In this document: positions 11,598 to 55,306 of the stretch, piece by piece
Layout: each line of letters starts with the position of its first letter
Position numbering within the stretch: position 1 is the stretch's first letter
NCBI GenBank assembly: GCA_910576125.1
Contig: CAJTHM010000022.1
Span: 1-64,000 of the forward strand
Length of the DNA stretch: 64,000 nt
From: Lachnospiraceae bacterium
GTDB taxonomy: Bacteria; Bacillota; Clostridia; Lachnospirales; Lachnospiraceae
Direction of reading: 5' to 3'
Made by a program: the position numbers and the translations under genes
The notes under the pieces: model-generated
What the model was told of the DNA's origin: nothing
Databases searched by the model: none
The model's input: the letters and a program-made list of their open reading frames with translations, nothing else

Positions 11598-12284
11598 TCA
11601 GTCGAAGGCTTCCTGAAAATCCTCCGCATCCCTTTCCGCGTCGTCCGCATCCTCCGCGTCCTCTCCCTCTTCCCCGGCTTCCGTTTCCGCCGGGTCGAAT
11701 CTGCCCTCCGGAAGATACTCCCGCATCACCTGCTTCAGCTGGGGGATATCCATGCAGAACTGCAGGGAGGGATAGAGCTTCACCTTGCTGTCCTCCTTTG
11801 TGTCGTTCTCATCCCAGGCCAGTAGGCTGAACCGCTTGAACAGCTTGAACGCCGCCCGGAACTCCGTGGGCGCCGGTTCTATCCCGTACACCTTACACTT
11901 ATCGATCACGTCCCCCACTGTCACATAGATTTCCTCCGAAAAGCCCACCTTCTCCAGATAGAGCAGCCACAGCGCCAGAAGCATCTGCACCTGTTTTCCG
12001 TCGAAGACCACCAGATTGCTGCGCTTGATCCCCACCGTATCCAGATCCGCCTCGTTCTGCACCAGCATGGCCACCTTCAGCTTGTCCTCCACCACCACGT
12101 CATACCCTATCTTGCGCAGGAACGCAGAGACGTCATAGCAGTTGGACTCCACCGAAAGATACTGGTACAGCCTTTCGTCCCTGTCCTCTATGATAAAAGT
12201 GGCGTCCAGCAGCTTCCGGATGCATCTCTTAAACAGAAGCTCTTCCTCGTCCTTCATGTTCTCCAGAAAGTCAAATTCCCCCAT
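11598..12284 (-). CDS. jetB: Wadjet JetB (DUF4194, MukE-like)
   Basis: This is a 228-residue protein with the size and position of JetB, the MukE/kite-like subunit that binds JetA and the SMC heads. The body (about 10-190) is winged-helix-like with LLLALWLLYLEKVGF-type hydrophobic helices. The last 35 residues are a very acidic, probably disordered tail (repeated Glu, Asp and Ala). It starts nine bases after jetA ends and is followed by a repeat-containing gap before jetC. Assignment rests on order, length and domain pattern. Confidence 0.85.
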   Translation of the reverse strand: MGEFDFLENMKDEEELLFKRCIRKLLDATFIIEDRDERLYQYLSVESNCYDVSAFLRKIGYDVVVEDKLKVAMLVQNEADLDTVGIKRSNLVVFDGKQVQMLLALWLLYLEKVGFSEEIYVTVGDVIDKCKVYGIEPAPTEFRAAFKLFKRFSLLAWDENDTKEDSKVKLYPSLQFCMDIPQLKQVMREYLPEGRFDPAETEAGEEGEDAEDADDAERDAEDFQEAFD

Positions 12285-12293
12285 ATGATACCT

Positions 12294-13697
12294 CTATCGT
12301 CTCCTGATCTTCAGATTGGTCATCCTGGCGATGTCCGTCTCCACATAGCCATCCATCAATTCCACCGTGTAAGGAAATTCCTCGATGCCGGAATACATCA
12401 CAGCCGCGGCAAAGAGCATGGCTTCCTCCCTGTCCGCCACCCTCTGCTCCCGGAGCTCCAGCTCCTTTCTCCCGGCCATCCTCCCGTCCAGGAAACGCCT
12501 GGCGCCGTCTATGGAAAAACGGTTTTTCGTACCGGACATCACCGCCTGGGTCAGCAGCTCCTTCTCCTCCCGGGAAATGTCGCAGAGCGGAAGGCCGATC
12601 TCCCCGCGATCCCGCTCCCTGGGCTTCCGTCTCTCATAAGACTTCCTGCCGATGTACTTTTGGGAAGAGACCCTCATGCAGCCTGCCGCCCGCTCCAGCG
12701 CCTGCTGCCTTTCCTCCTGTCCCATCCCTTTCAGGGCGCTGAGAAATCCGTCCAGAAGGGACTCCATCTCCACGCCGTTTCCCATCACCAGCATCATCCG
12801 GATGTTGGCCAGACGATAATAGGTATTGATCCTGGCGTCAATCAGCTCCATGTTCTCCTGGTATTCCACGCTGAGGAAATAGGAGAGCCTCGCCAGGACG
12901 GCCTGCACCTTCTCTCTGGCCTGTGCGCCCTCTATCTGGTGCACGGCGGCGCATTCCGCGGCCATTTTTTCAAATATCCGCCCCTCTTCTATGACGCGGA
13001 GCTTGTTCCGGATGAAGGAAAGCTGGCTTGGAATCAGGCCGTTATTTTTCAGGAAGAAATAATCGTTGAAAAATTTGTCCAGCAGTTCGTCCTTCATCAA
13101 AAACTTTCCCACGCTGTTGGCGTCCTGGAGCTCCATCACCATCCGCATGATATTGGCGATGCTGTCTTTTAAGTCCAGCAGCTCGTTCTTCAATTCCTCC
13201 ACATGGTCTGACAGGGGGTTCAGGATCGTGGAATAAGGCCGTTCCGCCCGGGCGGAATCCTCCTCAAAGCTTGCCTTCAGGATCTCGTACATGGAAAAAA
13301 TGTGATTGGAAAGCGTCCCCTGATTCCCCTTCTCACACATTTTCCGGAAAAATTCCATGATCCTCCGGCAGCTCATAGACACATTGGCCACATTTTCCCC
13401 GTTCCGCCCGATCTCCCGGGGGGTGACCCAGCCGCATTCCCGCAGATAGGCCATGATGGCGGAGGCGCTTCTGTCCGGCGCCTGCTGCTCCTGCCCTTCC
13501 CCCTGCTCATCCTGGAACACATATTTGCTGTTCCTCAGGTAGAGCGCCACGCAGTTCCTGGCATCGGAATCGTACAGCACAGGGACTTCCCTGGACTTCT
13601 CGATCAGGGAAAGGATGCATTCATAATAGATCCTCCGGTTCTGGCTGCTCAGAGGATGGAAGAATTTCTCGTTGTCTACCAGTTCAAATATATCCAT
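12294..13697 (-). CDS. jetA: Wadjet JetA (DUF5716, MukF/kleisin-like)
   Basis: This is a 467-residue, mainly helical protein with the size and position of the kleisin-like JetA. The N-terminal part (FELVDNEKFFHPLSSQNRR) forms a winged-helix domain, and a central helical section is rich in coiled-coil heptads. The C-terminal RKPRERDRGEIGLPL region precedes a second winged helix ending in the YVETDIARMTNLKIRRR tail. JetA bridges the two JetC heads and recruits JetB. The gene follows the Panacea toxin gene by 28 bases, so all six genes from 15662 to 8136 may be one transcript. I do not assign a Wadjet subtype. Confidence 0.85.
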   Translation of the reverse strand: MDIFELVDNEKFFHPLSSQNRRIYYECILSLIEKSREVPVLYDSDARNCVALYLRNSKYVFQDEQGEGQEQQAPDRSASAIMAYLRECGWVTPREIGRNGENVANVSMSCRRIMEFFRKMCEKGNQGTLSNHIFSMYEILKASFEEDSARAERPYSTILNPLSDHVEELKNELLDLKDSIANIMRMVMELQDANSVGKFLMKDELLDKFFNDYFFLKNNGLIPSQLSFIRNKLRVIEEGRIFEKMAAECAAVHQIEGAQAREKVQAVLARLSYFLSVEYQENMELIDARINTYYRLANIRMMLVMGNGVEMESLLDGFLSALKGMGQEERQQALERAAGCMRVSSQKYIGRKSYERRKPRERDRGEIGLPLCDISREEKELLTQAVMSGTKNRFSIDGARRFLDGRMAGRKELELREQRVADREEAMLFAAAVMYSGIEEFPYTVELMDGYVETDIARMTNLKIRRR

Positions 13698-14050: not shown

Positions 14051-14647
14051 TCAATCGCCGCAATGGATAGACTTATAATAGGATGCCATGGTGTGGGGAG
14101 AAATCACAACCGTACATCTTTCAGCCGGTTCATATCCCCTCCTTGCCTCCATCCAGGGCAATTCCCGATGTGACAGGGCTTCCAGGGCATTTCCCGTACT
14201 GTCGCCATAAGTTTCCCATACATCTTCCAATAACCGTATATCCTCAGGGTCAAAATGAGCCTTATTCCCACTTTTCATGCAGATGGTATCGTATCCAAAT
14301 GCCTTGAACCGCTCCCACAGCGCAGGTGAAACCGGCCCATGTACCCATGCCTGGTAATCCGTATCCTCCAGGCGATACCCCTTCAATGCATATGCCCAGG
14401 CCTGGGCATAATAACAGAGTTTCTGAAGCTTTTTATGGGTCATATCGCTTTTGGATAAAAACCAGTTCGCAACATCAAAGATGGAATATTTCCCGGTTTC
14501 CTCCACTTCAATATTCTCTATTTCCTCGGGATCTATAAAAACATACCTGTCTGTATTCGTCGGAATCGCTGATGTCATGTAGGAACGATATGCATCATAT
14601 GGCCATGGAGACATGGTGTTAAGTCTGATATCCTGAACCACGCTCAT
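14051..14647 (-). CDS. Panacea/SocA-type antitoxin (DUF4065)
   Basis: This is a 198-residue protein with a Panacea domain from about residue 53. Typical features are DVANWFLSK, THKKLQKLCYYAQAWA and a following AWVHGPVSPALW. In characterised systems this domain neutralises toxins of several folds; in Caulobacter SocA it also delivers the toxin to ClpXP. The first 50 residues are an extension with no match I recognise. The start at 14647 is supported by AGGAGG six bases before the ATG, and it overlaps the upstream protease gene by 29 bases. The coupled downstream ORF is the likely toxin. Confidence 0.85.
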   Translation of the reverse strand: MSVVQDIRLNTMSPWPYDAYRSYMTSAIPTNTDRYVFIDPEEIENIEVEETGKYSIFDVANWFLSKSDMTHKKLQKLCYYAQAWAYALKGYRLEDTDYQAWVHGPVSPALWERFKAFGYDTICMKSGNKAHFDPEDIRLLEDVWETYGDSTGNALEALSHRELPWMEARRGYEPAERCTVVISPHTMASYYKSIHCGD

Positions 14648-15662
14648 ATATTACCTCCTCCTCTCCATTCCTCACCGAGACCTGGCCTCCCTCCGAGGCA
14701 TGGTCATGCCTCCATCCCTCATAGCTTATGCTGTTCTGTATCGCCGTCTGGCCGTCCGGCATTTTTCCTCTCACCACGACCCCTTCTGTGGAAAAATAAT
14801 CCGCGCCCCCGACCACGCTCTCCAGTATGCACCTGCGGACAGCATAAGCGCCATTTACTTCCGTAATCAAAAACGGCTTGCCGAACAGCAGCTCTTCATT
14901 TATGTCGTCATATATTCTCTTTATCAGTTCATATTGAAAAGCAGTGGGATTGACAATCTGAAGCCCTAACTCGTTCTTGGCTTCCCGCCTGTTGATGGTA
15001 TAATCATGGCTCCCCGATTCACTGCATAAAAAGTCAATGATCTTCTTGATCTTTTCCGGCTCAGTGACCTGGTTCTGAAGCAGCTTTTCCGCCATCATCT
15101 GAATCTGGGCTTTTGAGCGATATACCTCGCCCAGCACAAGCGGATGCACAAAATCCGTCAGCTTTTCGAATATGCTTGCCAGCGATGCCTCATCCTGAAT
15201 TTCCAACTCATTTTTAGCGAACTCCAGATAGCCCTTTACAGCCTCCACGCTTACCGGAAAAATCCCTCCCTCAGGCCTTCTGGGATTCAAAGCGGTATAC
15301 AGGCTTGGATCGATCGGCCCCAGCGTAGCCTGCTTGGTCATCACAATTTCATTCGCTCCCAAACTGATAATCGTACCCGCGCTGTGCGCCTTGTGGGGTA
15401 TTATGACTTGAAGAAAATCCCCATACATCCTGAGCAGATTTACGATATTCCTTGCAGTTGAAGTATCCCCGCCCCGGGTATATAATAAAAGCGAAATCCT
15501 CCCGCATGGCTTTATTTTATCTAAATGATCGATAAAATAATCAATTACATCGGGAGAGATCTGAGCGGCCATGTTCGGCCTGTCGCTTGTCACATAAACG
15601 AGAATCTTGCTGTGAAACTCTTTTTCAAGTTCTCTATAAAGTGCAACCCTGTCCCTATACAT
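14619..15662 (-). CDS. SDH-type Clp-fold serine protease
   Basis: This is a 347-residue protein of the serine dehydrogenase proteinase family (PF01972), a membrane-free Clp/SppA fold. YTRGGDT at 61-67 forms the oxyanion region, AHSAG at 92-96 places the nucleophile at S94, and ATLGPIDP follows. The GAGGGG ribosome site precedes ATG 15662. It heads a run of minus-strand genes and overlaps the Panacea antitoxin gene. A protease beside an antitoxin is suggestive because antitoxin turnover triggers many toxin systems; a link to defence is inference. The promoter may lie near or within the repeat at 15711-15812. Confidence 0.8.
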   Translation of the reverse strand: MYRDRVALYRELEKEFHSKILVYVTSDRPNMAAQISPDVIDYFIDHLDKIKPCGRISLLLYTRGGDTSTARNIVNLLRMYGDFLQVIIPHKAHSAGTIISLGANEIVMTKQATLGPIDPSLYTALNPRRPEGGIFPVSVEAVKGYLEFAKNELEIQDEASLASIFEKLTDFVHPLVLGEVYRSKAQIQMMAEKLLQNQVTEPEKIKKIIDFLCSESGSHDYTINRREAKNELGLQIVNPTAFQYELIKRIYDDINEELLFGKPFLITEVNGAYAVRRCILESVVGGADYFSTEGVVVRGKMPDGQTAIQNSISYEGWRHDHASEGGQVSVRNGEEEVIYERGSGYQT

Positions 15663-15710: not shown

Positions 15711-15812
15711 TATACTGCTTAACGATTTCACTTGCCGTGAAACCAGACTGCATAACGCTGACTGATTCAATCGCATGATTACATTAGGCAGCATTCAGCG
15801 TTATGCAGTATA
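15711..15812. repeat. Palindromic intergenic repeat family A, full copy
   Basis: This 102-bp unit begins TATACTGCTTAACG and ends CGTTATGCAGTATA, so the outer ends are inverted repeats. It contains two internal hairpins: one around TTTCACTTGCCGTGAAA and one pairing TGCATAACGCTGA with TCAGCGTTATGCA across the right half. A nearly identical copy lies at 55205-55306 and variants at 18325, 28701 and 45740. It has no coding capacity and resembles a MITE or REP-type element. Confidence 0.85.
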
Positions 15813-16020: not shown

Positions 16021-16157
16021 CTCTATGTTATGCGGTCACCAACCTTCATTCCCTCTTTCCATGTGCTTCCTGTGGATATTTTAGCATGCCCCCACAAATA
16101 CCGCAATCGTTTTTTACAGCCGCTATTCCACAAAAGCCCGGGGAGGAGTATATCCCG

Positions 16158-16322
16158 AACCTGACAGACACCCCGGGACATATGGACTTCAACTATGAAG
16201 TCAGCCGCTCCCCGGCAGCCTGCGACGTTGCCATATTGGTGGACGCGGTGCAGGGCATCAAGACCCAGACCCTGGCCAATGTATACCTGCCCCTGAACCA
16301 TGACCTGGACGTGATTCCCTCC
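16158..16322 (+). pseudogene. lepA (elongation factor 4) internal fragment
   Basis: The plus-strand frame reads [20 protein letters not shown], then about 35 more residues ending [12 protein letters not shown]. This matches the G3 motif region (DTPGH) of LepA/EF4, including the LANVYLAL-type stretch that distinguishes LepA from EF-G. Only about 55 codons remain. There is no start region, no earlier P-loop and no downstream domains, so it is a fragment. Its last part is the template of the tandem repeats that follow. Confidence 0.8.
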
Positions 16323-16597
16323 GCAATGCCAGAAAAAGGCAATCCACCTTACAACAGATGAAACAACCGCATCAAACCCCAGACCCTGACCAATGTATAA
16401 CTAATCCTGAATCATGACCTGGACGTGATTCCCTCCGCGACGCCCGAAAAAAACAATCCACCTCACAGCAGATGTAACAACCGCATCAAGTCCCAGACCA
16501 TGGCCAATGTATACCTAATTCTGAATCATGACCTGGACATTATCCCCTCCGCAATGCCAGAAAAAGACAATCCGCCTCACAACAGATGAAACAACCG
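16256..16597. repeat. Three tandem 114-bp repeats derived from lepA
   Basis: Three head-to-tail units begin at 16256, 16370 and 16484 with an exact period of 114 bases (38 codons). Each carries catcaa, ccagacc, ccaatgtata, catgacctggac and a shared gatg-aacaaccg end. Unit 1 still reads as LepA ([14 protein letters not shown]); units 2 and 3 have substitutions, including a stop in place of the Tyr-Leu stretch in unit 2. The third unit supplies the last codons and stop of the phosphoribosyltransferase gene on the minus strand. There are no spacers, so it is not CRISPR. Confidence 0.9.
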
Positions 16598-17089
16598 CAA
16601 AGTCGTATCCGGCCCCACGCTCCCCACCTGCCTGGCAACTTCCCCTCCCACAAACGAATTCCCCGAAACCCGCACGGCGAACAGCCTCTCCCCGAACATC
16701 GGCACAGCCCGCTCATTCACCACGCAGCAGGCCGCGTAAACCCCCGAATCCCACACCTCCGTCAACGTCCTCCCGGTATTGATCACCGAATCCACCAAAA
16801 TCACATGCCTCGTCCCCGGCCGCGCGAACTTCTCATGCTTCGGATCATACAGCCCGAACCTGCACCCCATAGCCAGATACATCCCCTCCGCGAAAAATAT
16901 CCCCCCGCGCAGCACCGCCACAACCGTAGTCTCCTCCGGCTCAAACTGCCCAAGCTGCCCTATCTGCGCCCCCAACGACCTTCCCAGCTCCCTGTGGGCT
17001 TCCACCAGCCTCGGCCCGCAGACCCCCGAGTCGGATTTCGTCATGGCAATCAGTCTCTCCACCTCTTCATTCCTCTTCAATTCATACAT
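16577..17089 (-). CDS. Phosphoribosyltransferase-domain protein
   Basis: This is a 170-residue type I PRTase-like protein. The PRPP-binding loop HVILVDSVINTGRTL occupies 95-109, and VAVLRGGIFFAEG near 57-69 is the usual PPi-loop strand. It resembles the uracil/xanthine PRTase group in outline, but the base specificity cannot be read. The start overlaps the end of the kinase/HAD gene by eight bases, so the two products are probably made together. The final residues (about RLFHLL and the stop) come from the third lepA-derived repeat, so the natural C-terminus may have been replaced. Confidence 0.75.
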   Translation of the reverse strand: MYELKRNEEVERLIAMTKSDSGVCGPRLVEAHRELGRSLGAQIGQLGQFEPEETTVVAVLRGGIFFAEGMYLAMGCRFGLYDPKHEKFARPGTRHVILVDSVINTGRTLTEVWDSGVYAACCVVNERAVPMFGERLFAVRVSGNSFVGGEVARQVGSVGPDTTLRLFHLL

Positions 17090-18143
17090 AAATCAACCCC
17101 TCCATATCCTTTCCCCTGAGGCTCCCGCTCACCGAGCCGTCCGGCCTCCTCACAAGGTACCCCACATCCGCCTGCCGCAGCATATAGTAATCATTCATGC
17201 TGTCCCCATAAGCGATGACCCTCTTCCCGGCCCTCTGCAGCATCTTCGCGATGAAGAACTTGGTCTCCGCGGCCATCTCCCTCCCGCCATAGAACGGAAT
17301 CTGCAGCTCTCCCGCGATGAAGCGCCATATCCGCTCATGCCCGGATGTCAGCAGGAAAGCGTCGCCCGCAATGCCATCCACGATCCTTTCATTCAGCCGG
17401 ACAGGCATCTCCTTCAATTCCGGAACCGGATACCCCTCAAATTCCCTGTTCTGCTTCCACACCTGATATCCGGTGTAAAACTCTCCGTCAAAGACATGGG
17501 TTCTGTAGCCAAAGACCGCCTTGCTGCTGTCCTCCACGGCCAGCGTCCTGTCCCCGTCCAGCAATGTGACCGTATCCGTTCTGCTCCTCCCAAGAATCTC
17601 CTCCACACACCTTGCCGCAAAGGACACGCAGCTATAGCCCTCCCCAATCTCCCGGATGAATCCGATCACATCCGATATGTCCCCGAAAACATCCTCCGGC
17701 GGATTGTCAAGGACATAGAAATCCTTATCATGCTCATGGCAATACTGCCGCAGGCCGGCAATCTCCCTGTCCTGCCATGCCCCTATATCGTACTGCAGAT
17801 AGTTCCGGTTCTTCCCGGAACCCTCCATCCTCGCCCGCAGGACAGCAGGCGACAGATACAGGTACAGGAAAACGTCATACAACTGTCCGTCCTCCTCCGT
17901 GAACACGGTCTGTTCGCCGAAGGCATAATGCCCGTCCATGATGAAATCCTCTCCCCCATGCCGCTCCCGCAGCCCGCGAGCCAGCGCTTTCCTGGCTTTC
18001 TCCCTGCCCCTCTCGTCCAGACTGTCAAATTCCGGATTCCCTTCCCGCAGCAGACGGCTTCCGGCCAGGGTCTGCAGGAAGGGAATCCTGTCCAGAATAT
18101 AGGTCTTCCCCGATGCGGGCATTCCGTACAATCCAATTTTCAT
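17082..18143 (-). CDS. P-loop kinase / HAD phosphatase fusion
   Basis: This is a 353-residue two-domain protein. The N-terminal domain (1-190) is a P-loop kinase with Walker A GMPASGKT at 7-14 and a likely substrate region around DFIMDGHYAFGEQT. The C-terminal domain is HAD-like: motif I LLDGDRTLA near 195-205 and the last motif YGDSMNDYYML near 318. ATG 18143 is chosen over GTG 18149 because AAGGAG lies five bases before it. Fusion of a kinase and a phosphatase with a co-translated PRTase points to synthesis or recycling of a phosphorylated nucleoside or sugar; related combinations occur in predicted nucleoside-like metabolite pathways. The substrate is unknown. Confidence 0.7.
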   Translation of the reverse strand: MKIGLYGMPASGKTYILDRIPFLQTLAGSRLLREGNPEFDSLDERGREKARKALARGLRERHGGEDFIMDGHYAFGEQTVFTEEDGQLYDVFLYLYLSPAVLRARMEGSGKNRNYLQYDIGAWQDREIAGLRQYCHEHDKDFYVLDNPPEDVFGDISDVIGFIREIGEGYSCVSFAARCVEEILGRSRTDTVTLLDGDRTLAVEDSSKAVFGYRTHVFDGEFYTGYQVWKQNREFEGYPVPELKEMPVRLNERIVDGIAGDAFLLTSGHERIWRFIAGELQIPFYGGREMAAETKFFIAKMLQRAGKRVIAYGDSMNDYYMLRQADVGYLVRRPDGSVSGSLRGKDMEGLIYV

Positions 18144-18169
18144 AGCCACTCCTTATACCACAATATGCT

Positions 18170-18315
18170 CCAGGAATCTCCAGGCCGCATATCACGGAGC
18201 TTACCGAAGCTCCTCTGAGCCGATTCCCCCCACTGTTCCGGTTTTGTCCTGCTCCGATGCCAGGTTCCGCCTCCAAAGATTCCGTGAGCCTGTCACATGC
18301 TCCCGGAATCGCAAG
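18170..18315. repeat. Dispersed repeat family B copy
   Basis: This copy follows the start side of the kinase/HAD gene and directly adjoins a family A repeat. It shares ctccaggccgcatatc with the copy in the jetB-jetC gap and longer similarity with 15870-16020. No ORF in it looks real. Confidence 0.5.
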
Positions 18316-18324
18316 CCTGTGGGT

Positions 18325-18494
18325 TATACTGCATAACGCTGAATGCTGCCTAAGGAATTGTCAAAAAATTATTTTTGACAATTCCGGCAAATTGCTTCGC
18401 AGTTTGCCGGAACCAGAAATAACTCTTGAAGAGTTATTTCTGGACGGTACCTAATGTAATCATGGGATTGAACCAGTCAGCGTTAGGCAGTATA
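18325..18494. repeat. Family A repeat interrupted by a 96-bp insert
   Basis: The ends (TATACTGCATAACGCTGA on the left, its complement with one change on the right) and the internal taatgtaatcatg block match family A. The copy is inverted relative to the one at 15711 and lacks its outer hairpin. A 96-base element splits it. The right end also supplies the last residues (CYTA) and TAA stop of the radical SAM gene, so that repeat copy is partly coding. Confidence 0.8.
18354..18449. mobile_element. 96-bp triple-hairpin mini-element with 5-bp target duplication
   Basis: The insert is flanked on both sides by CCTAA (18349-18353 and 18450-18454), while uninterrupted family A copies have this sequence once. 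Nearly all of it folds into three adjacent hairpins: GGAATTGTCAAAAA with its complement (18354-18385), GGCAAA-TGC with its complement (about 18386-18408) and CCAGAAATAACTC with its complement (18412-18442). It has no coding capacity. This looks like a very small non-autonomous mobile element. Confidence 0.7.
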
Positions 18495-19319
18495 ACATCC
18501 CAGAAACTCCTTATAACAACAGCTTCGGTCGAATGTCAGCGAAATCTTTTCCAGCTCTTCCAGGGATATCCCGCTGTCCCCCACCGGCGGCAGGTCGATG
18601 CAGTTCCCGCAGTAATACGTTTTACCGTTTGCAAAGAAATAATTATTCGTACCAGCCCCGCACAGGCCGCCGTACATCGTACAGTCCAATCCGCCCCGCC
18701 TGACCGGAAGCTCCTTTCCCGCCCTGTCCATGAAATCCCGGTATTCCCCCAGGGAAATCCCATATTTTCCAATCATCCGGGAAAAGGTCACTTTGGTTCC
18801 AAAAGGCTGGAAAAAGGAAATCACCTCTTCCGCGTTTCTCAGACTTTCCCTGCCCACAGTGGCGTTGAAGGTAGGATAATGCCCTGTCGCCTGTCTATAG
18901 CGCTCCACATTCTCCATGGCCCGGTCAAAGGAATTGCACCGATACTTGTCGTGCAGCTCCTTGTATCCGTCAATGGAAAACCCCACATTGACCCTGTGTT
19001 CCTCCAGGAACGCCAGGTCTTCCTCCGGAAGCCTGACGGTTCCGTTGGTTATGGTATAGATTCTGACTCCCGGAGCGTCCTCTAAGTAGGCGATATAGGA
19101 TTTCAGCGCCTGCCAGTCCAGGAAGCATTCTCCGTTTCCCACGAACCCGATCTTAAATCCCTTCTCCGGGCATTTCTTTTCCGTATATTTTTTAACGTTA
19201 TTCAGTATTTCATATACATCCATTTCCGCAGCCTCGATTTTCCCCTTTTCATGGAAATGACAGTAGCTGCAGGCAAGGTTGCATCGGTTATTGATGGAGA
19301 TGCATATCCTGTCGATCAT
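18483..19319 (-). CDS. Radical SAM protein with SPASM-like C-terminus
   Basis: This is a 278-residue radical SAM enzyme. CNLACSYC at 13-20 provides the CxxxCxxC cluster ligands, and VGNGECFLDW near 59 stands where the GGE-type SAM motif is expected. The C-terminal Cys residues (LDCTMYGGLCG, YYCGNC, SCCYKE, LGC) suggest an auxiliary Fe-S cluster of SPASM or twitch type, as in peptide-modifying enzymes and anaerobic sulfatase maturases. The ATG overlaps the stop of the HTH-PIN-ankyrin gene (ATGA), so the two are translationally coupled. The last codons and stop come from a family A repeat. No small precursor peptide gene is obvious next to it. Confidence 0.8.
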   Translation of the reverse strand: MIDRICISINNRCNLACSYCHFHEKGKIEAAEMDVYEILNNVKKYTEKKCPEKGFKIGFVGNGECFLDWQALKSYIAYLEDAPGVRIYTITNGTVRLPEEDLAFLEEHRVNVGFSIDGYKELHDKYRCNSFDRAMENVERYRQATGHYPTFNATVGRESLRNAEEVISFFQPFGTKVTFSRMIGKYGISLGEYRDFMDRAGKELPVRRGGLDCTMYGGLCGAGTNNYFFANGKTYYCGNCIDLPPVGDSGISLEELEKISLTFDRSCCYKEFLGCYTA

Positions 19320-20779
19320 GGCCTTCCGCGCTTCCTTCCCTCATTCTGGTTTTTCTGCCAGGTACGGTTCTTGCTCCTTCCGGTCTCCAGGTATTCACGG
19401 TAATGGTCTTCCGCGGTGTAGCCGTTCCTGTCCACGATCCTTTCATCCGCCCCGGCCGCCCGGATGATGTCCCGGCATTCCAGCCATCCCCAGTGGCACG
19501 CCTTCATCAGCGCCGTGTAGCCGTTCCCGTCCTGCTGGTTCAGGCTAATCCGCGGATCCGCGCACAGCTCTCTGACGAATTCCACCCGGTTGTCCCAGGC
19601 CGCGATCATCAGGGGCATGTTTCCGTCATTCTTCTGCCGTATCTTTCCGGCGTCATAGGGGTTCCTGCTGCCCACGTTGGGGTTGGCTCTGCACTCATGG
19701 AGCAGAAATCTGAACATCTCGAAATCCCGGTTCTGGATGGCGTGGGACAGGGGCGGAAAATAGTATTTCCCGCAGTCTCTTCTGTCCACGTCTGCGCCGT
19801 GCCCAATCAGCCACCGGATTTTCTCTTTCCTCTGGTTCATGGGCTTTTTCCGGCTCCTTACCACAGAGATAATCAGGGTGTTGCCCTCCGGCAGGTAGGC
19901 GTTGATGTCCTCCCGGTTCGGAATCGTCACCCCCAGCGCGCTCTCCATGCCCTCATAGGAATCCGCGTAGTAGGCGTTGATTTTCTTAAGGCTCTGGATG
20001 TCCATCAGGTTCTGTTTCGTGACCATGTATTCCTCAAGGTACAGGGCCTTGACTGTGGCATGTCCGCTCAACCGCGCCGCGAATCCCGCGTCATAGGTAA
20101 TGATGTCCACCTGGCAGTGGAACTCTTCGGCGGCCTTCTCCGCCACCTTTACAATCTGAGCGTCAGGATTGCCGGTTCTTCCCTTCCCTGGCGGATTCCT
20201 CCCAGCACCTTCCGCCGCTTTTACATCCTGCCCGTCAGGATTGCCGGTTCTCCCCTTCCCTGGCGGATTCCTCCCAGCACCTTGCGCTACCTTTACAGCC
20301 TGCCCGTCATAGCTACCGGCTTTCCTTTCTCCCGCGGGATTCCCTGTGGTCACGTTGGAGCCGGAACCAATGCTCTTCAGAATCTGCCAGGCCTTTTTGG
20401 CCAGCTTCGGATTGTGGTCTTTGATGAAATCAAGCTCCTCCACCACCATATCCGGCACGATGACTCTGCTGTACTCTCTGCTCAGTTCATCTATCAGCTG
20501 AATGTTCTTCAACAGCGCCGACGTGTCTGTTACTACGACTCTGTCTCCGCGTAGGAACTGGTCTTTCTGTCGGGATGTGAGCCCCAGTTTGTCGCAGTAA
20601 TCATGGGCAAACCCCAGGACGGTCTTGTAGCTGGTGTCGCCGCCGATTTTTTCCGCTCTTGATAAGGTGGATTTGTTGCATCCGATCAGCTCTGCCATGT
20701 GGGACTGGGTCTTGTGGTTCTTCTCCCGAAGCTCAATCATCCGCTTTCTCAGAAAATCCTTCTGTATCTGGTCATCCAT
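19316..20779 (-). CDS. HTH-PIN-ankyrin protein
   Basis: This is a 487-residue three-part protein. An XRE-type helix-turn-helix occupies about 10-62 (TQSHMAELIGCNKSTLSRAE). A PIN-type RNase domain spans about 80-245 with acidic residues D85 (VTDTSALL), E114/E115 and D230 (ITYDAGF). Ankyrin repeats run from about 318 to 470 (DGNGYTALMKACHWG is typical). A 24-residue tandem repeat is inserted at about 163-210 between the PIN glutamate and its last aspartate. It probably binds its own promoter and cuts RNA under control of the ankyrin part. It leads the radical SAM gene with an ATGA overlap. The combination is unusual. Confidence 0.75.
   Translation of the reverse strand: MDDQIQKDFLRKRMIELREKNHKTQSHMAELIGCNKSTLSRAEKIGGDTSYKTVLGFAHDYCDKLGLTSRQKDQFLRGDRVVVTDTSALLKNIQLIDELSREYSRVIVPDMVVEELDFIKDHNPKLAKKAWQILKSIGSGSNVTTGNPAGERKAGSYDGQAVKVAQGAGRNPPGKGRTGNPDGQDVKAAEGAGRNPPGKGRTGNPDAQIVKVAEKAAEEFHCQVDIITYDAGFAARLSGHATVKALYLEEYMVTKQNLMDIQSLKKINAYYADSYEGMESALGVTIPNREDINAYLPEGNTLIISVVRSRKKPMNQRKEKIRWLIGHGADVDRRDCGKYYFPPLSHAIQNRDFEMFRFLLHECRANPNVGSRNPYDAGKIRQKNDGNMPLMIAAWDNRVEFVRELCADPRISLNQQDGNGYTALMKACHWGWLECRDIIRAAGADERIVDRNGYTAEDHYREYLETGRSKNRTWQKNQNEGRKRGRP
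20150..20320. repeat. In-frame 72-bp tandem repeat within the PIN gene
   Basis: Two nearly identical 72-base units start at 20161 and 20233, followed by a degenerate third. They encode 24-residue units with the core GAGRNPPGKGRTGNPD. The period keeps the frame, so unit number can vary without breaking the gene. The insert falls in a surface loop of the PIN domain. Confidence 0.85.
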
Positions 20780-20830: not shown

Positions 20831-20859
20831 AGCATAGCACCCGGTTGCATTTTTATCAA
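20831..20859 (-). promoter_or_regulatory. Promoter of the HTH-PIN-ankyrin gene
   Basis: On the minus strand TTGATA (20859-20854) and TATGCT (20836-20831) are separated by 17 bases. It lies about 50 bases upstream of the ATG at 20779. A TGCAAC motif sits between the two boxes, a position where bound repressor would block RNA polymerase. Confidence 0.65.
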
Positions 20860-21000
20860 TATATTGCCTTACTTTTGCAACCGAATCACCATGATTGCAA
20901 CAGGCCCTTCCGTATCCGGCATTTCCGCAACCGGAGCGGGGTTTTTACAACGATTGCACTATCCTATAAATAACTGCAACACTTTCGATTTGATTGCAAC
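20844..21000. promoter_or_regulatory. Cluster of TTGCAAC-type operator candidates
   Basis: TTGCAA(C) or close forms occur at 20844 (inverted), 20875, 20894, about 20926 (CGCAAC), 20953, 20974 (CTGCAAC) and 20993. Seven sites in under 160 bases upstream of a gene for an XRE-type regulator suggests autoregulation. Direct-repeat orientation predominates. Confidence 0.5.
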
Positions 21001-21193: not shown

Positions 21194-21400
21194 ATGATTC
21201 GAAATCATAAAAAGCCTCTGACGCGCACCAGAGGGCAGGCCCGGCGGAACTTGCCCTGGAGCAGTACCGTACCATCGTCAGCCAGGCCGCCGATACACTA
21301 TCAGAGGCAGAGGGGTCGGCAGCGCCGGCGGCCTCTCCGCCGCGGGGCAAAGTCCCGCGGCCCAAAATCATATCCTCGCCAGCGCACTCTGGCACCAACG
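21194..21400 (+). pseudogene. Internally deleted copy of the FecR-lipoprotein gene
   Basis: ATGATTCGAAATCATAAAAA resembles the start of the intact gene at 27082. It is followed directly by pieces matching its codons for LTRTSGQ, then ELALEQYRAIISQA, then AADTLSEG and the SLSAAG region. Large blocks between these pieces are missing and the frame is lost. A Shine-Dalgarno (aaaggag) precedes the ATG. This is a dead paralogue made by several internal deletions. Its end overlaps the 3' end of the nucleotidyltransferase gene on the other strand. Confidence 0.75.
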
Positions 21401-22033
21401 AAACAATAACGAAAAAGCTCTGTCAAAATCATAGCCGTCATCATTCCGCAATGAAACGCTCAATTCCAGAACAGCTTTATCCTCATCCTGCACACATTCC
21501 AGCAATTCCCGTTTTGTCGGAACAAAATTACCGGTATGCAGATAATGCAAATGCTGCACAATGTAAAATACCGATTTACAGGTTACCGGCAGCCTTGAAA
21601 TATTATGCTCCCTGTCAGCGTGTATATAACGGTGGCAAATTTCGTGATAGAGATTGTTCAAACTGAACTTGACATAGTTCCTTTCATCCTCCATGGTATA
21701 TGCCGGAACAAGATTCTTCAATTCTCCGTAATAATCTTTTGTCGTGTTCAATAAATGGCATAGTTCCAAGGGGTTCCAATGGCTTAAATCAGCCCTGCCG
21801 CAGATAAATCCACAGGACTTGTCAAAATTACCGATTGAAACAAGGGCTTGTCGATAGGTGTCCAAATCTTCCACCGAAATATCATCAATCACGGCCATGA
21901 TATCAATATCACTGTTTTCCGTCGCTTCATTCCGAAGATAACTGCCCTGCAATCCTATGTACACCAGTCTCTCGCCAAATGCGTCTGCCAATATATCTGT
22001 CAGTTCATCAATATATTCCTCTATTCGAATCAT
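21368..22033 (-). CDS. Nucleotidyltransferase-domain protein
   Basis: This is a 221-residue protein of the Pol beta-like nucleotidyltransferase superfamily. GSYLR at 30-34 and the metal-binding SDIDIM (D42, D44) are the core motif. The C-terminal 120 residues are helical, with conserved HEICHRYIH, and resemble substrate domains of aminoglycoside-type adenylyltransferases, though the drug or target is unknown. It has a strong GGAGG site seven bases before ATG 22033. It is isolated: a FecR pseudogene lies on one side and an unrelated operon end on the other. A role in resistance or as a toxin-type nucleotidyltransferase is possible. Confidence 0.7.
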   Translation of the reverse strand: MIRIEEYIDELTDILADAFGERLVYIGLQGSYLRNEATENSDIDIMAVIDDISVEDLDTYRQALVSIGNFDKSCGFICGRADLSHWNPLELCHLLNTTKDYYGELKNLVPAYTMEDERNYVKFSLNNLYHEICHRYIHADREHNISRLPVTCKSVFYIVQHLHYLHTGNFVPTKRELLECVQDEDKAVLELSVSLRNDDGYDFDRAFSLLFRWCQSALARI

Positions 22034-22230: not shown

Positions 22231-23052
22231 CTAAGAATCCATAAAAAGCCCCCGATGCTTCTCAAAAAACGCAAAAAAGTACCGTACATTTTTAAGCTCC
22301 GTCCACCCCACCACTTCCAGATCCCTGGAGTCCAGATTATAAATCTTTGCCTGCAGCGTCCCCAGCATGAAAGGCGAATGGGTCGATATGATGAACTGGC
22401 AGCCCAGGAACCTGGCCATCCGGTTCAGCTTCTCCGCCAGCTTCGTCTGGTTTTCCGGAGACAGCGACACCTCCGGCTCGTCCAGCAGATACAGGGCATC
22501 CGGCTCCATATAGTCGTCCAGCATCTGTAGGGTGGTCTCTCCGTTGGAGTATTTTTCCTGGGCATATTTCAGGATTTCCAGTTTCTGTTCTGTGGCATAG
22601 GAGTTCCGGAATTCTTCTCTCTGCTCTTTCGCCAGCCCTCTCCGCACATGCTCGTACACATACCCGTCCTCCAGAATCTGCTCCTGTTGTATCTTCTTGA
22701 TTTCGTACAGAATATCCTCGCTCTTGATATATCTGCTGCCCTGGGGAATCCGGCGCAGCGCCTTTCCGTTCTCCTCTTCCCCCAGAGCGTAGCTGCATCC
22801 CTTTATGAAGTTCAGGAAATAGGGAACTCTCCCATACTGGTTGCTGGTGGCATACTCCAGGCCCTCCAGCCGCAGTTTATTCGCCATGATGTTCAGCATG
22901 GTGGACTTCCCCGAAGCATTCTCGCCATACAGGACGGTAATCGGGGCAAACAGCAACAGCCTTTCCGCCTTGTCTGCGAACACATTATAAGGGTAAATAT
23001 TTGGGTCGATGACCTTTTCATCCGAAAATAGAAAGCTGCTTAAATATATCAT
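22231..23052 (-). CDS. AAA/ABC-type ATPase (SMC-like)
   Basis: This is a 273-residue ATPase with Walker A GENASGKST at 43-51, a Walker B YLLDEPEVSLSP and a following H-loop STHSPFM. This short ABC-type arrangement is close to OLD/RecF-like stand-alone ATPases in which the head occupies the whole protein. The start at 23052 makes a 4-base ATGA overlap with the end of tag, so the longer 23118 start is rejected. The role is unknown. As a cytosolic AAA_21-type protein it could be a defence ATPase lacking its partner nuclease. Confidence 0.75.
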   Translation of the reverse strand: MIYLSSFLFSDEKVIDPNIYPYNVFADKAERLLLFAPITVLYGENASGKSTMLNIMANKLRLEGLEYATSNQYGRVPYFLNFIKGCSYALGEEENGKALRRIPQGSRYIKSEDILYEIKKIQQEQILEDGYVYEHVRRGLAKEQREEFRNSYATEQKLEILKYAQEKYSNGETTLQMLDDYMEPDALYLLDEPEVSLSPENQTKLAEKLNRMARFLGCQFIISTHSPFMLGTLQAKIYNLDSRDLEVVGWTELKNVRYFFAFFEKHRGLFMDS

Positions 23053-23651
23053 GATTCTATATCCCGTCTCTTCCGCGCCGTCTCCGCCCCGTCCATCACC
23101 TCCAGGTACCGGAAGCATCCCTCCACATGGTCATTCACCATCCCGCAGGACTGCAGATGGGCGTAAACTGTCACCGACCCCAGATACTTGAATCCTCTCT
23201 TCTTCAGATCCTTCGCTATTCTGTCCGACAGCCCGTTCCTCGCCGGAATCTGCCCTTTCTGGTGCCCCATATACAGAATCATCTTACCCTTAGAGAACCC
23301 CCACAGATACTCGGAAAACGTGCCGAATTCCTCCCGCACTTTCAGGAAGCGCCGGGCGTTGTGAATCACTGCTTCCACCTTGCGTCTCGACCGAATCATC
23401 CCCTCCGTATCCAGAATCCGCCGGATGTCCTCCTCCCCATAGGCCGCCACCTTCTGAAAGTCGAATCCGTCAAAACACTCCCGGAATATCTCCCGCTTCT
23501 GGATCATCATATTCCAGTTCAGCCCGCACTGCATGGCCTCCATCATCATGTACTCGAACTGCTTTCGGTCGTCATGCACCGGCACGCCCCACTCCTCGTC
23601 ATGGTACTTCACCATTTTCTCATTGCACAGACACCATCCGCACCGTTCCAT
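23049..23651 (-). CDS. tag: DNA-3-methyladenine glycosylase I
   Basis: This is a 200-residue enzyme that removes 3-methyladenine from alkylated DNA. MERCGWC with C4, YHDEEWGVP with H17, and the C-terminal NDHVEGC supply the zinc ligands typical of Tag, and the helical core matches the family length. ATG 23651 is preferred to 23672 because GGAGG lies six bases upstream of it. It sits third in an operon with a sugar symporter, a lipase and an AAA ATPase; this does not suggest a shared pathway. Confidence 0.93.
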   Translation of the reverse strand: MERCGWCLCNEKMVKYHDEEWGVPVHDDRKQFEYMMMEAMQCGLNWNMMIQKREIFRECFDGFDFQKVAAYGEEDIRRILDTEGMIRSRRKVEAVIHNARRFLKVREEFGTFSEYLWGFSKGKMILYMGHQKGQIPARNGLSDRIAKDLKKRGFKYLGSVTVYAHLQSCGMVNDHVEGCFRYLEVMDGAETARKRRDIES

Positions 23652-55204: not shown

Positions 55205-55306
55205 TATACTGCTTAACGATTTCACTTGCCGTGAAACCAGACTGCATAACGCTGACTGGTTCATTCGCATGATTACATCAGGCAGCATTCAGCGTTATGC
55301 AGTATA
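55205..55306. repeat. Palindromic repeat family A, full copy near oriC
   Basis: This 102-bp copy is almost identical to the one at 15711-15812, 39 kb away, with only a few substitutions. It separates dnaN from the S4-protein gene, which are usually close together. The near identity points to recent spread. Confidence 0.88.

Follow-up and report, generated by a model that had tools for sequence, protein, structure and literature searches.

We analysed a stretch of 64,000 nucleotides from a Lachnospiraceae bacterium (assembly GCA_910576125.1, contig CAJTHM010000022.1, positions 1 to 64,000; hereafter the window), which carries at 16577-20779 a set of four genes encoding a helix-turn-helix (HTH)-PIN-ankyrin protein, a radical S-adenosylmethionine (SAM) protein, a kinase fused to a haloacid dehalogenase (HAD) phosphatase, and a phosphoribosyltransferase (PRTase). 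An earlier note on this DNA had grouped these four open reading frames (ORFs), and all of them were recovered at these positions on the minus strand. The 4-bp ATGA overlap that it described between the first two genes is present, and the last two, which it took nearly to overlap, in fact share 8 bp. The features of the locus are as follows.

19316-20779, minus strand: HTH-PIN-ankyrin gene (PIN-ankyrin below), 487 amino acids (aa); N-terminal XRE-like HTH, PIN_4 RNase domain, C-terminal ankyrin repeats; a putative effector that may also act as regulator
18483-19319, minus strand: radical SAM gene, 278 aa; SPASM/twitch-like C-terminal part; the last codons extend into the insertion
17082-18149, minus strand: kinase-HAD gene, 355 aa; P-loop nucleoside monophosphate (NMP)-kinase-like domain fused to a HAD phosphatase
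16577-17089, minus strand: PRTase gene, 170 aa; uracil phosphoribosyltransferase (UPRTase)-like phosphoribosyltransferase
18158-18505, no strand: insertion, 348 bp between copies of TATAAGGAGT
20844-21000, no strand: operator-like array, five TGCAAC/GTTGCA sites upstream of the PIN-ankyrin gene
20139-20343, minus strand: 72-bp tandem duplication in the PIN-coding part, 2.4-2.8 copies

Pfam returned PIN_4 (1.8e-10) and Ank_2 (4.2e-21) for the PIN-ankyrin protein, Radical_SAM (4e-16) for the radical SAM protein, AAA_17 (1.8e-7) together with a HAD match (Hydrolase_3, 1.1e-4) for kinase-HAD, and Pribosyltran (6e-7) for the PRTase. The HTH match is weak in the window protein (HTH_3, 0.012, under the cut-off) and strong in relatives, e.g. 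HTH_19 with 8.1e-11 in locus L053. Judged against relatives, kinase-HAD probably starts at the ATG at 18143.

Conservation of the gene set

Relatives were collected at 48 loci, 44 of them in genome contigs with a kinase-HAD profile (kinase-HAD is present in these by construction) and four in IMG/VR with a radical SAM profile; the collection is partly redundant, as L023/L060 and L025/L026 are near duplicates and L017, L028 and L054 are contigs also met as L012-L014. With tblastn, all four components were found in 39 of the 48 loci, far more often than chance would allow. The earlier note had considered that homologues of the two gene pairs might not occur together elsewhere, which would have made them unrelated units; they do occur together, and the reading of the four genes as one functional unit, not two unrelated pairs, is supported.

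Three of the remaining nine loci are cut by a contig edge (L016, L035, L043), and six appear decayed or truncated. L020 is without the radical SAM gene, L033 without the PIN-ankyrin and radical SAM genes, and L051 without PIN-ankyrin and half of radical SAM; kinase-HAD is broken in L053. L055 (6769-9339) is a decayed, chimeric copy in which the N-terminal kinase part runs in frame with an unrelated repeat-rich protein, and in the truncated copy L040 (9001-10356), from the gammaproteobacterium Anaerobiospirillum, kinase-HAD is followed by an alanine-rich stretch, the first PRTase residues and then a stop 82 bp short of the contig end.

The genes are tightly coupled in the relatives. Start codons were picked with the window proteins as reference. 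On this basis, all 29 pairs of radical SAM and kinase-HAD genes in unfused loci overlap (by 4 or 10 bp), as do all 29 pairs of kinase-HAD and PRTase genes (by 8 or 14 bp), and the PIN-ankyrin gene overlaps the radical SAM gene in 33 of 41 pairs. In 15 loci, mostly from Ruminococcus-type genomes and Anaerobium, kinase-HAD and PRTase are a single protein encoded in one frame.

Against this background, the 333-bp gap between the radical SAM and kinase-HAD genes of the window (18150-18482) contrasts with the overlap in all 29 unfused relatives. The gap is repetitive because it is an insertion: a 10-bp direct repeat, TATAAGGAGT, at 18148-18157 and 18506-18515, which is a target duplication and has no further copy in the window, flanks 348 bp of inserted DNA and looks to cover the ribosome-binding site of the kinase gene. 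When the flanks were joined in a script, a 273-aa radical SAM protein ending in CYKEWL resulted, which shares a 4-bp ATGA overlap with the kinase ATG, as in L017 and L061. As closing the insertion restores the overlap, the gap does not part unrelated units; with the pairs also linked in relatives, we rejected the alternative of two unrelated gene pairs split by the gap. The insert itself holds a dispersed repeat, split by about 96 bp. The right-hand part of this repeat recurs at 36 further places in the genome, and two of these lie in the window (15747-15812 and 55241-55306).

Among 200 genomes of the same family, kinase-HAD occurs in four (the window's included), radical SAM in the identical four, and PIN-ankyrin in those four and one more. 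The match in this further genome is just a short HTH-PIN protein without ankyrin repeats (L015:6882-7556), with no enzymes of the set in the surrounding 15 kb. The system is rare, since a phylum-wide sample of 398 genomes yielded the window's own copy alone. In IMG/VR, the profiles of radical SAM, kinase-HAD and the NERD-domain protein described below each returned the identical four contigs, and the PIN-ankyrin profile returned those four and two more. One of these two stops inside its PIN-ankyrin gene. The other, L110 (4025-8049), is a viral contig on which the complete set, in unchanged order, lies between phage portal and terminase genes; identity to the window proteins is 25% for PIN-ankyrin, 39% for radical SAM, 26% for kinase-HAD and 25% for PRTase. 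So diverged a copy suggests a wider, older family beyond the reach of the baits used.

Predicted enzymes, the PIN-ankyrin protein and its putative operators

The kinase-HAD protein carries the HAD residues D198-G-D200-x-T, K297, D316 and D320, and the PRTase an LRGG loop, a VDSVINTG phosphoribosyl pyrophosphate (PRPP) loop and a GPDTTxRLF tail; alignments of 35 and 37 rows show the P-loop, HAD and PRPP motifs to be conserved. We used an AlphaFold model of the fused kinase-HAD-PRTase of L054 (mean predicted local distance difference test score, pLDDT, 91.5) for structure comparison. Its PRTase domain matches Sulfolobus UPRTase (1xtt; Z 19.0, 2.1 A, 162 aa), its kinase domain an Odinarchaeota adenylate kinase (Z 18.6, 2.6 A, 165 aa) and its HAD domain SerB/phosphoserine phosphatase (PSP; Z 13.2, 3.9 A, 163 aa). 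A UPRTase fold is likewise indicated by PF14681, which scored above its cut-off in L054 (30.7 bits) and L110 (41.2) and below it in the window PRTase (22.8 vs 27); the only Pfam matches of the latter at E up to 1 are PF00156, PF14681 and PF04143. An RNA end-healing enzyme of the Pnkp type was considered for the domain order of kinase-HAD and appears less likely: the kinase matched archaeal adenylate kinases and the HAD domain SerB/PSP, and Pnkp was absent among the 50 matches listed.

The radical SAM protein of the window has a CX3CX2C motif and the further cysteines C213, C220, C237, C240 and C268, and the five extra cysteines of its SPASM-like part are invariant. Cluster cysteines are kept in the 41 aligned rows except L052, where four residues, one of them a cluster cysteine, are missing. 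Conservation of these cysteines and of the kinase-HAD and PRTase motifs makes it probable that the active sites of the enzymes are functional. In NCBIfam, no family cut-off was reached among the best 25 of 71 matched families, which include the SPASM maturase families HxsB (the top match, 79.1 bits vs 370), anSME, PapB and others. The NCBIfam models listed for the other three proteins likewise stayed under their cut-offs. Beyond the maturases discussed below, the AlphaFold model (pLDDT 88.6) matches viperin (Z about 19), MoaA (17.4), BlsE (16.0) and BtrN (13.7). Membership in the viperin family was rejected, with 39.6 bits for NF038283 against a cut-off of 180; pVip is the sole PADLOC name returned for this protein (8.5e-13, 46.4 bits, residues 5-177 only).

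Among phage records, 32 (25 Vibrio, 7 'Bacteriophage') match the window radical SAM protein, none of them covering 80% of it; identity is 27-29% among the 20 of the 32 that were listed. The window kinase-HAD matched nothing in 50,697 phage or 72,556 plasmid records; the fused kinase-HAD-PRTase, the PIN-ankyrin protein and the L110 kinase-HAD matched none of the phage records, nor did the L110 kinase-HAD match any plasmid record. One plasmid match of the L110 radical SAM protein is an unrelated sactipeptide locus and was set aside.

In the PIN-ankyrin protein, the acidic PIN residues D85, E115, D206 and D230 are kept in 41, 41, 39 and 43 of 43 aligned rows respectively; the PIN RNase that the earlier note had predicted around D85 and D230 thus has an intact predicted active site. 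By mean pairwise identity, the ankyrin part (0.51) is conserved best, ahead of the two PIN parts (0.43 and 0.36) and the HTH (0.33). Pairwise identities of radical SAM and kinase-HAD correlate strongly (r=0.79; 351 pairs from 27 loci, namely those, out of the 48 and the window, that have a single aligned PIN-ankyrin gene and appear in each of the three alignments), whereas those of PIN-ankyrin correlate with neither radical SAM (r=0.17) nor kinase-HAD (r=0.14) over the same pairs. As the enzymes correlate with each other and not with PIN-ankyrin, PIN-ankyrin proteins have been exchanged between enzyme sets. In signal-based immunity, effectors swap while the enzymes stay, and the exchange pattern resembles this by analogy. 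Five loci carry two ORFs of the PIN-ankyrin family, one of these a fragment. L023 and L060 have tandem PIN-ankyrin genes, of which the second in L060 (7955-8983) begins at the PIN domain and is without an HTH. The 72-bp duplication in the PIN-coding part of the window is absent from the other rows displayed (every second row of the alignment).

Upstream of the PIN-ankyrin gene, TGCAAC/GTTGCA occurs five times in 20844-21000, against 11 times in the whole 64 kb, in agreement with the operator-rich promoter of the earlier note; among 1000 random 250-bp stretches of the window, seven hold some 6-mer five times. GATTGCAAC with one mismatch is not enriched window-wide (14 found vs 17.3 expected), and the enrichment is limited to the TGCAAC core in the promoter. 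The upstream motif differs between the two HTH clades compared, A and B: TGCAAC (at least two within 250 bp before the first PIN-ankyrin gene) was found in 20 of 24 clade A and 0 of 14 clade B loci, and TGCACA (at least three in 250 bp) in 0 of 24 and 6 of 14, where the rows are related, so that these are counts only and carry no probability, and where five rows of a third, most distant clade, the second gene of two tandem pairs, ORFs of less than 330 aa and rows with less than 150 bp upstream are omitted. Since each HTH clade pairs with its own upstream motif, each HTH type may read its own operator repeat, as the sequences suggest.

Mobility, proposed mechanism and alternatives

A protein with a NERD domain and a D-x12-E-V-K-type motif adjoins the operon in 18 of the 48 loci as an optional fifth gene; it was not detected in the genome of the window, in a search that had no positive control. 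According to Pfam matches, the operon of L060 is preceded by phage holin and amidase genes and followed by a serine recombinase gene, a prophage-type position; a phage amidase precedes it in L062, and similar-looking ORFs were seen by eye in L034. We compared flanking ORFs with a control set, omitting the near-duplicates L023 and L026 and dropping by hand ORFs that were mostly short or overlapping (98 to 89 upstream, 104 to 101 downstream, 115 to 101 in the control). Resolvase was found in 5 of 89 upstream and 7 of 101 downstream ORFs (12 of 190), vs at most 1 of 101 control ORFs, where it lay outside the 25 families listed. PADLOC families matched at E up to 1e-15 numbered 17 upstream, 36 downstream and 6 in the control, counts in which one protein may match several families and generic ATPase models occur in both the downstream and the control set. 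Enrichment of defence genes in the flanks is thus weakly indicated, and the recombinase signal is clearer. The NERD gene, the recombinases and the phage context fit a mobile conflict system, short of proving defence.

The earlier note had recognised no named system, and the four-gene system is indeed undescribed in PADLOC (2023), NCBIfam and PHROGs; nor was a description found in the open-access literature that was searched, including excerpts of PMC7824862, PMC9503650 and PMC13092281. PADLOC gave weak matches of the PIN-ankyrin protein to PDC-M72A, PDC-S70 and CARF_PIN, and none at E up to 0.01 for kinase-HAD and PRTase. In PHROGs, the radical SAM and PIN-ankyrin proteins matched radical SAM, PhoH-like, regulator and unknown-function families, and kinase-HAD and PRTase matched nothing. 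The unit looks like an undescribed phage-defence or competition system, judging from its sequences.

Ter-type systems with a predicted nucleoside-like metabolite were reportedly described by Anantharaman, Iyer and Aravind in 2012. The Ter concept of a nucleoside-like signal from PRTases and HAD phosphatases, as it appears in excerpts of PMC7824862, is the nearest published logic found: PRTases and HAD phosphatases as the proposed makers of such a signal, and sensor and response proteins distinct from them, are common to both. Unlike Ter, the operon has a UPRTase-like PRTase, a radical SAM enzyme, an NMP-kinase domain and a PIN-ankyrin effector, and Ter-type PRTase models were not among the Pfam matches of the window PRTase at E up to 1. 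Like pVip genes accompanied by kinases, it combines a radical SAM protein with a nucleotide-kinase-like protein in a defence-type location; unlike them, it has a radical SAM protein far under the viperin cut-off and with a SPASM-like part, a kinase-phosphatase fusion, and UPRTase and PIN-ankyrin genes. RNase L is an RNase controlled by ankyrin repeats that bind 2-5A. The resemblance of the operon to the oligoadenylate synthetase (OAS)-RNase L pair is one of logic only, with an ankyrin-bearing RNase next to putative nucleotide-making enzymes; unlike that pair, it has no OAS or cyclase, and a PIN instead of a KEN RNase. The PIN-ankyrin profile matches 379 PDB sequences, including RNase L through the ankyrin part (1wdy, 9.4e-27); this match is generic, with better scores for designed ankyrins.

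ShosTA, PsyrTA and retron-associated PRTases are cases of a PRTase in mobile conflict modules; compared with these, the PRTase here is without a PADLOC match at the E value given above and has other partners. In comparison with type II toxin-antitoxin systems, the HTH sits inside the PIN protein itself. In comparison with systems for ribosomally synthesized and post-translationally modified peptides, the overlap of most genes in relatives leaves no space between them, inside the operon, for a precursor gene. None of the four proteins matches a cyclase model of the CBASS type (Pfam, PADLOC), and weak cyclase matches (1.7e-3, 8.2e-3) belong to a separate gene at 21368-22033. DS-3 and DS-5 (DefensePredictor) depend on a PIN RNase for phage defence and have no classic antitoxin, according to excerpts of PMC13092281; unlike our operon, they consist of one and two genes, and these excerpts name no ankyrin repeats, radical SAM or kinase-HAD protein in them.

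The reading that we favour, tentatively, is that of a mobile conflict module under its own regulation, in which the enzymes produce a nucleotide-like compound and this acts through the ankyrin repeats to control the PIN RNase; its product, the sensing of this product and a role against phages are what we infer. The HTH-PIN-ankyrin protein would bind the repeated operator before its own operon and repress it, as the match of HTH clade and upstream motif suggests. The three enzymes, with regard to their folds and intact active sites, may work on one small molecule: the UPRTase-like enzyme would join a base with PRPP to a nucleotide, the NMP-kinase-like and PSP-like phosphatase domains would set its phosphorylation state, and the radical SAM enzyme would oxidise or rearrange the compound. 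Binding of the product, or of the enzyme complex, to the ankyrin repeats would then activate or restrain the PIN RNase, and the outcome of a phage attack (or of losing the system) would be cleavage of RNA and arrest of growth. A bolder version, which we regard as doubtful, is an undescribed nucleotide messenger from a UPRTase-like/NMP kinase-PSP phosphatase/SPASM radical SAM pathway, read by ankyrin repeats to control a PIN RNase; this would be OAS-RNase L logic built from unrelated parts, and an immunity borne by phages and gut bacteria against other phages.

Were this true, it would add a new biosynthetic route to nucleotide-based immunity, with radical SAM chemistry and a nucleobase PRTase in place of a cyclase, and a bacterial RNase governed through ankyrin repeats. 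Compact natural copies free of the window's insertion exist, so the question of the product is open to direct mass spectrometry. Mechanism aside, a unit of four or five genes that phages and gut bacteria have kept intact even at 25-39% identity, and that is unnamed in the defence, NCBI and phage libraries used, is a good test candidate.

Several observations weigh against the favoured reading. The radical SAM model is closest to peptide or protein maturases (ChlB, Z 22.5, 268 aa; anSME, Z 22.3, 260 aa). The PRTase, kinase and phosphatase domains are just 11-21% identical to the matched solved proteins, and their substrates may therefore differ; the ankyrin repeats could bind a protein. Coupling is looser in the fused loci, where radical SAM overlaps the kinase-HAD-PRTase gene in 3 of 8 adjacent pairs and lies 4-457 bp apart in the rest, and the gene order is changed in L049. 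Neither motif reached its cut-off in 4 of 24 clade A and 8 of 14 clade B loci, and the defence-gene scan of the flanks was set against a small control (101 ORFs). The nucleotide-like product that the earlier note had proposed is supported in part: the modelled nucleobase- and nucleotide-type folds agree with it, and the nearness of the radical SAM protein to maturases speaks against its simplest form, even if the next neighbours are viperin and MoaA.

These maturase matches, in structure and in sequence (anSME profile, 2e-16), would be expected if the radical SAM enzyme acted as a post-translational maturase on PIN-ankyrin (or on some protein of the host or a phage), with kinase-HAD and PRTase supplying or regulating a cofactor, and if modification, not a diffusible nucleotide, controlled the RNase. 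We consider this unlikely. The radical SAM gene does follow that of its supposed substrate, mostly with overlap, but the 43 PIN-ankyrin proteins have no invariant Cys, Ser or Tyr (the invariant Thr are T86 and T301), and the columns kept by at least 38 of the 43 rows contain no Cys and only S371 and Y251 as Ser and Tyr. Moreover, the two proteins do not co-diverge, as their low correlation attests, and the UPRTase and NMP kinase would be left without a clear role.

It is improbable that the enzymes form a viperin-like arm, making an antiviral analogue of a nucleotide that hits the phage directly, as a chain terminator or polymerase poison, with PIN-ankyrin as regulator and second arm. Viperins are the next structural neighbours, pVip is the one defence name found, and a UPRTase and an NMP kinase would yield a pyrimidine nucleotide; this must be set against the NF038283 score, the SPASM-like part with its extra cysteines, and a phosphatase domain on the kinase, which would be odd for triphosphate synthesis. 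A toxin with an enzymatic antidote, in which PIN cuts tRNA or another RNA and the enzymes modify or repair that RNA as protection, is more improbable again. Toxin function is typical of PIN proteins, base modification would be within reach of a radical SAM enzyme and a PRTase, and T4 polynucleotide kinase-phosphatase offers a parallel to the kinase-phosphatase pair. However, the best structural matches are archaeal adenylate kinases for the kinase and SerB for the HAD domain, the Pfam scan revealed no ligase or RNA-binding domain, and PIN products have 5'-phosphate and 3'-OH ends that need no healing. Finally, an ordinary operon for nucleobase salvage or stress, regulated by an HTH protein and without a conflict function, which the UPRTase-like and NMP-kinase-like folds would suit, is very improbable for a set that is rare (4 of 200 family genomes), mobile and present in phage contigs, and that includes an intact RNase domain and an optional NERD nuclease.

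Other genes near the operon

The earlier note had placed the operon beside a defence island, and Wadjet genes are indeed present 3 kb from it, with JetA (4.5e-181) and JetB (2.1e-81) at 11598-13697. Beside these, at 14051-15662, a protein with a SocA/Panacea domain adjoins an SDH-family ClpP-like protease, possibly as a two-gene module. Just upstream of the operon and on the same strand are a nucleotidyltransferase-like gene (21368-22033) and an AAA_21 ATPase gene (22231-23118), possibly a separate defence pair. At the end of the PRTase gene, a short ORF (16086-16599) runs into three tandem 114-bp copies (16255-16599); from its motif we take it to resemble part of the translation factor LepA, and the stretch looks like genomic debris.

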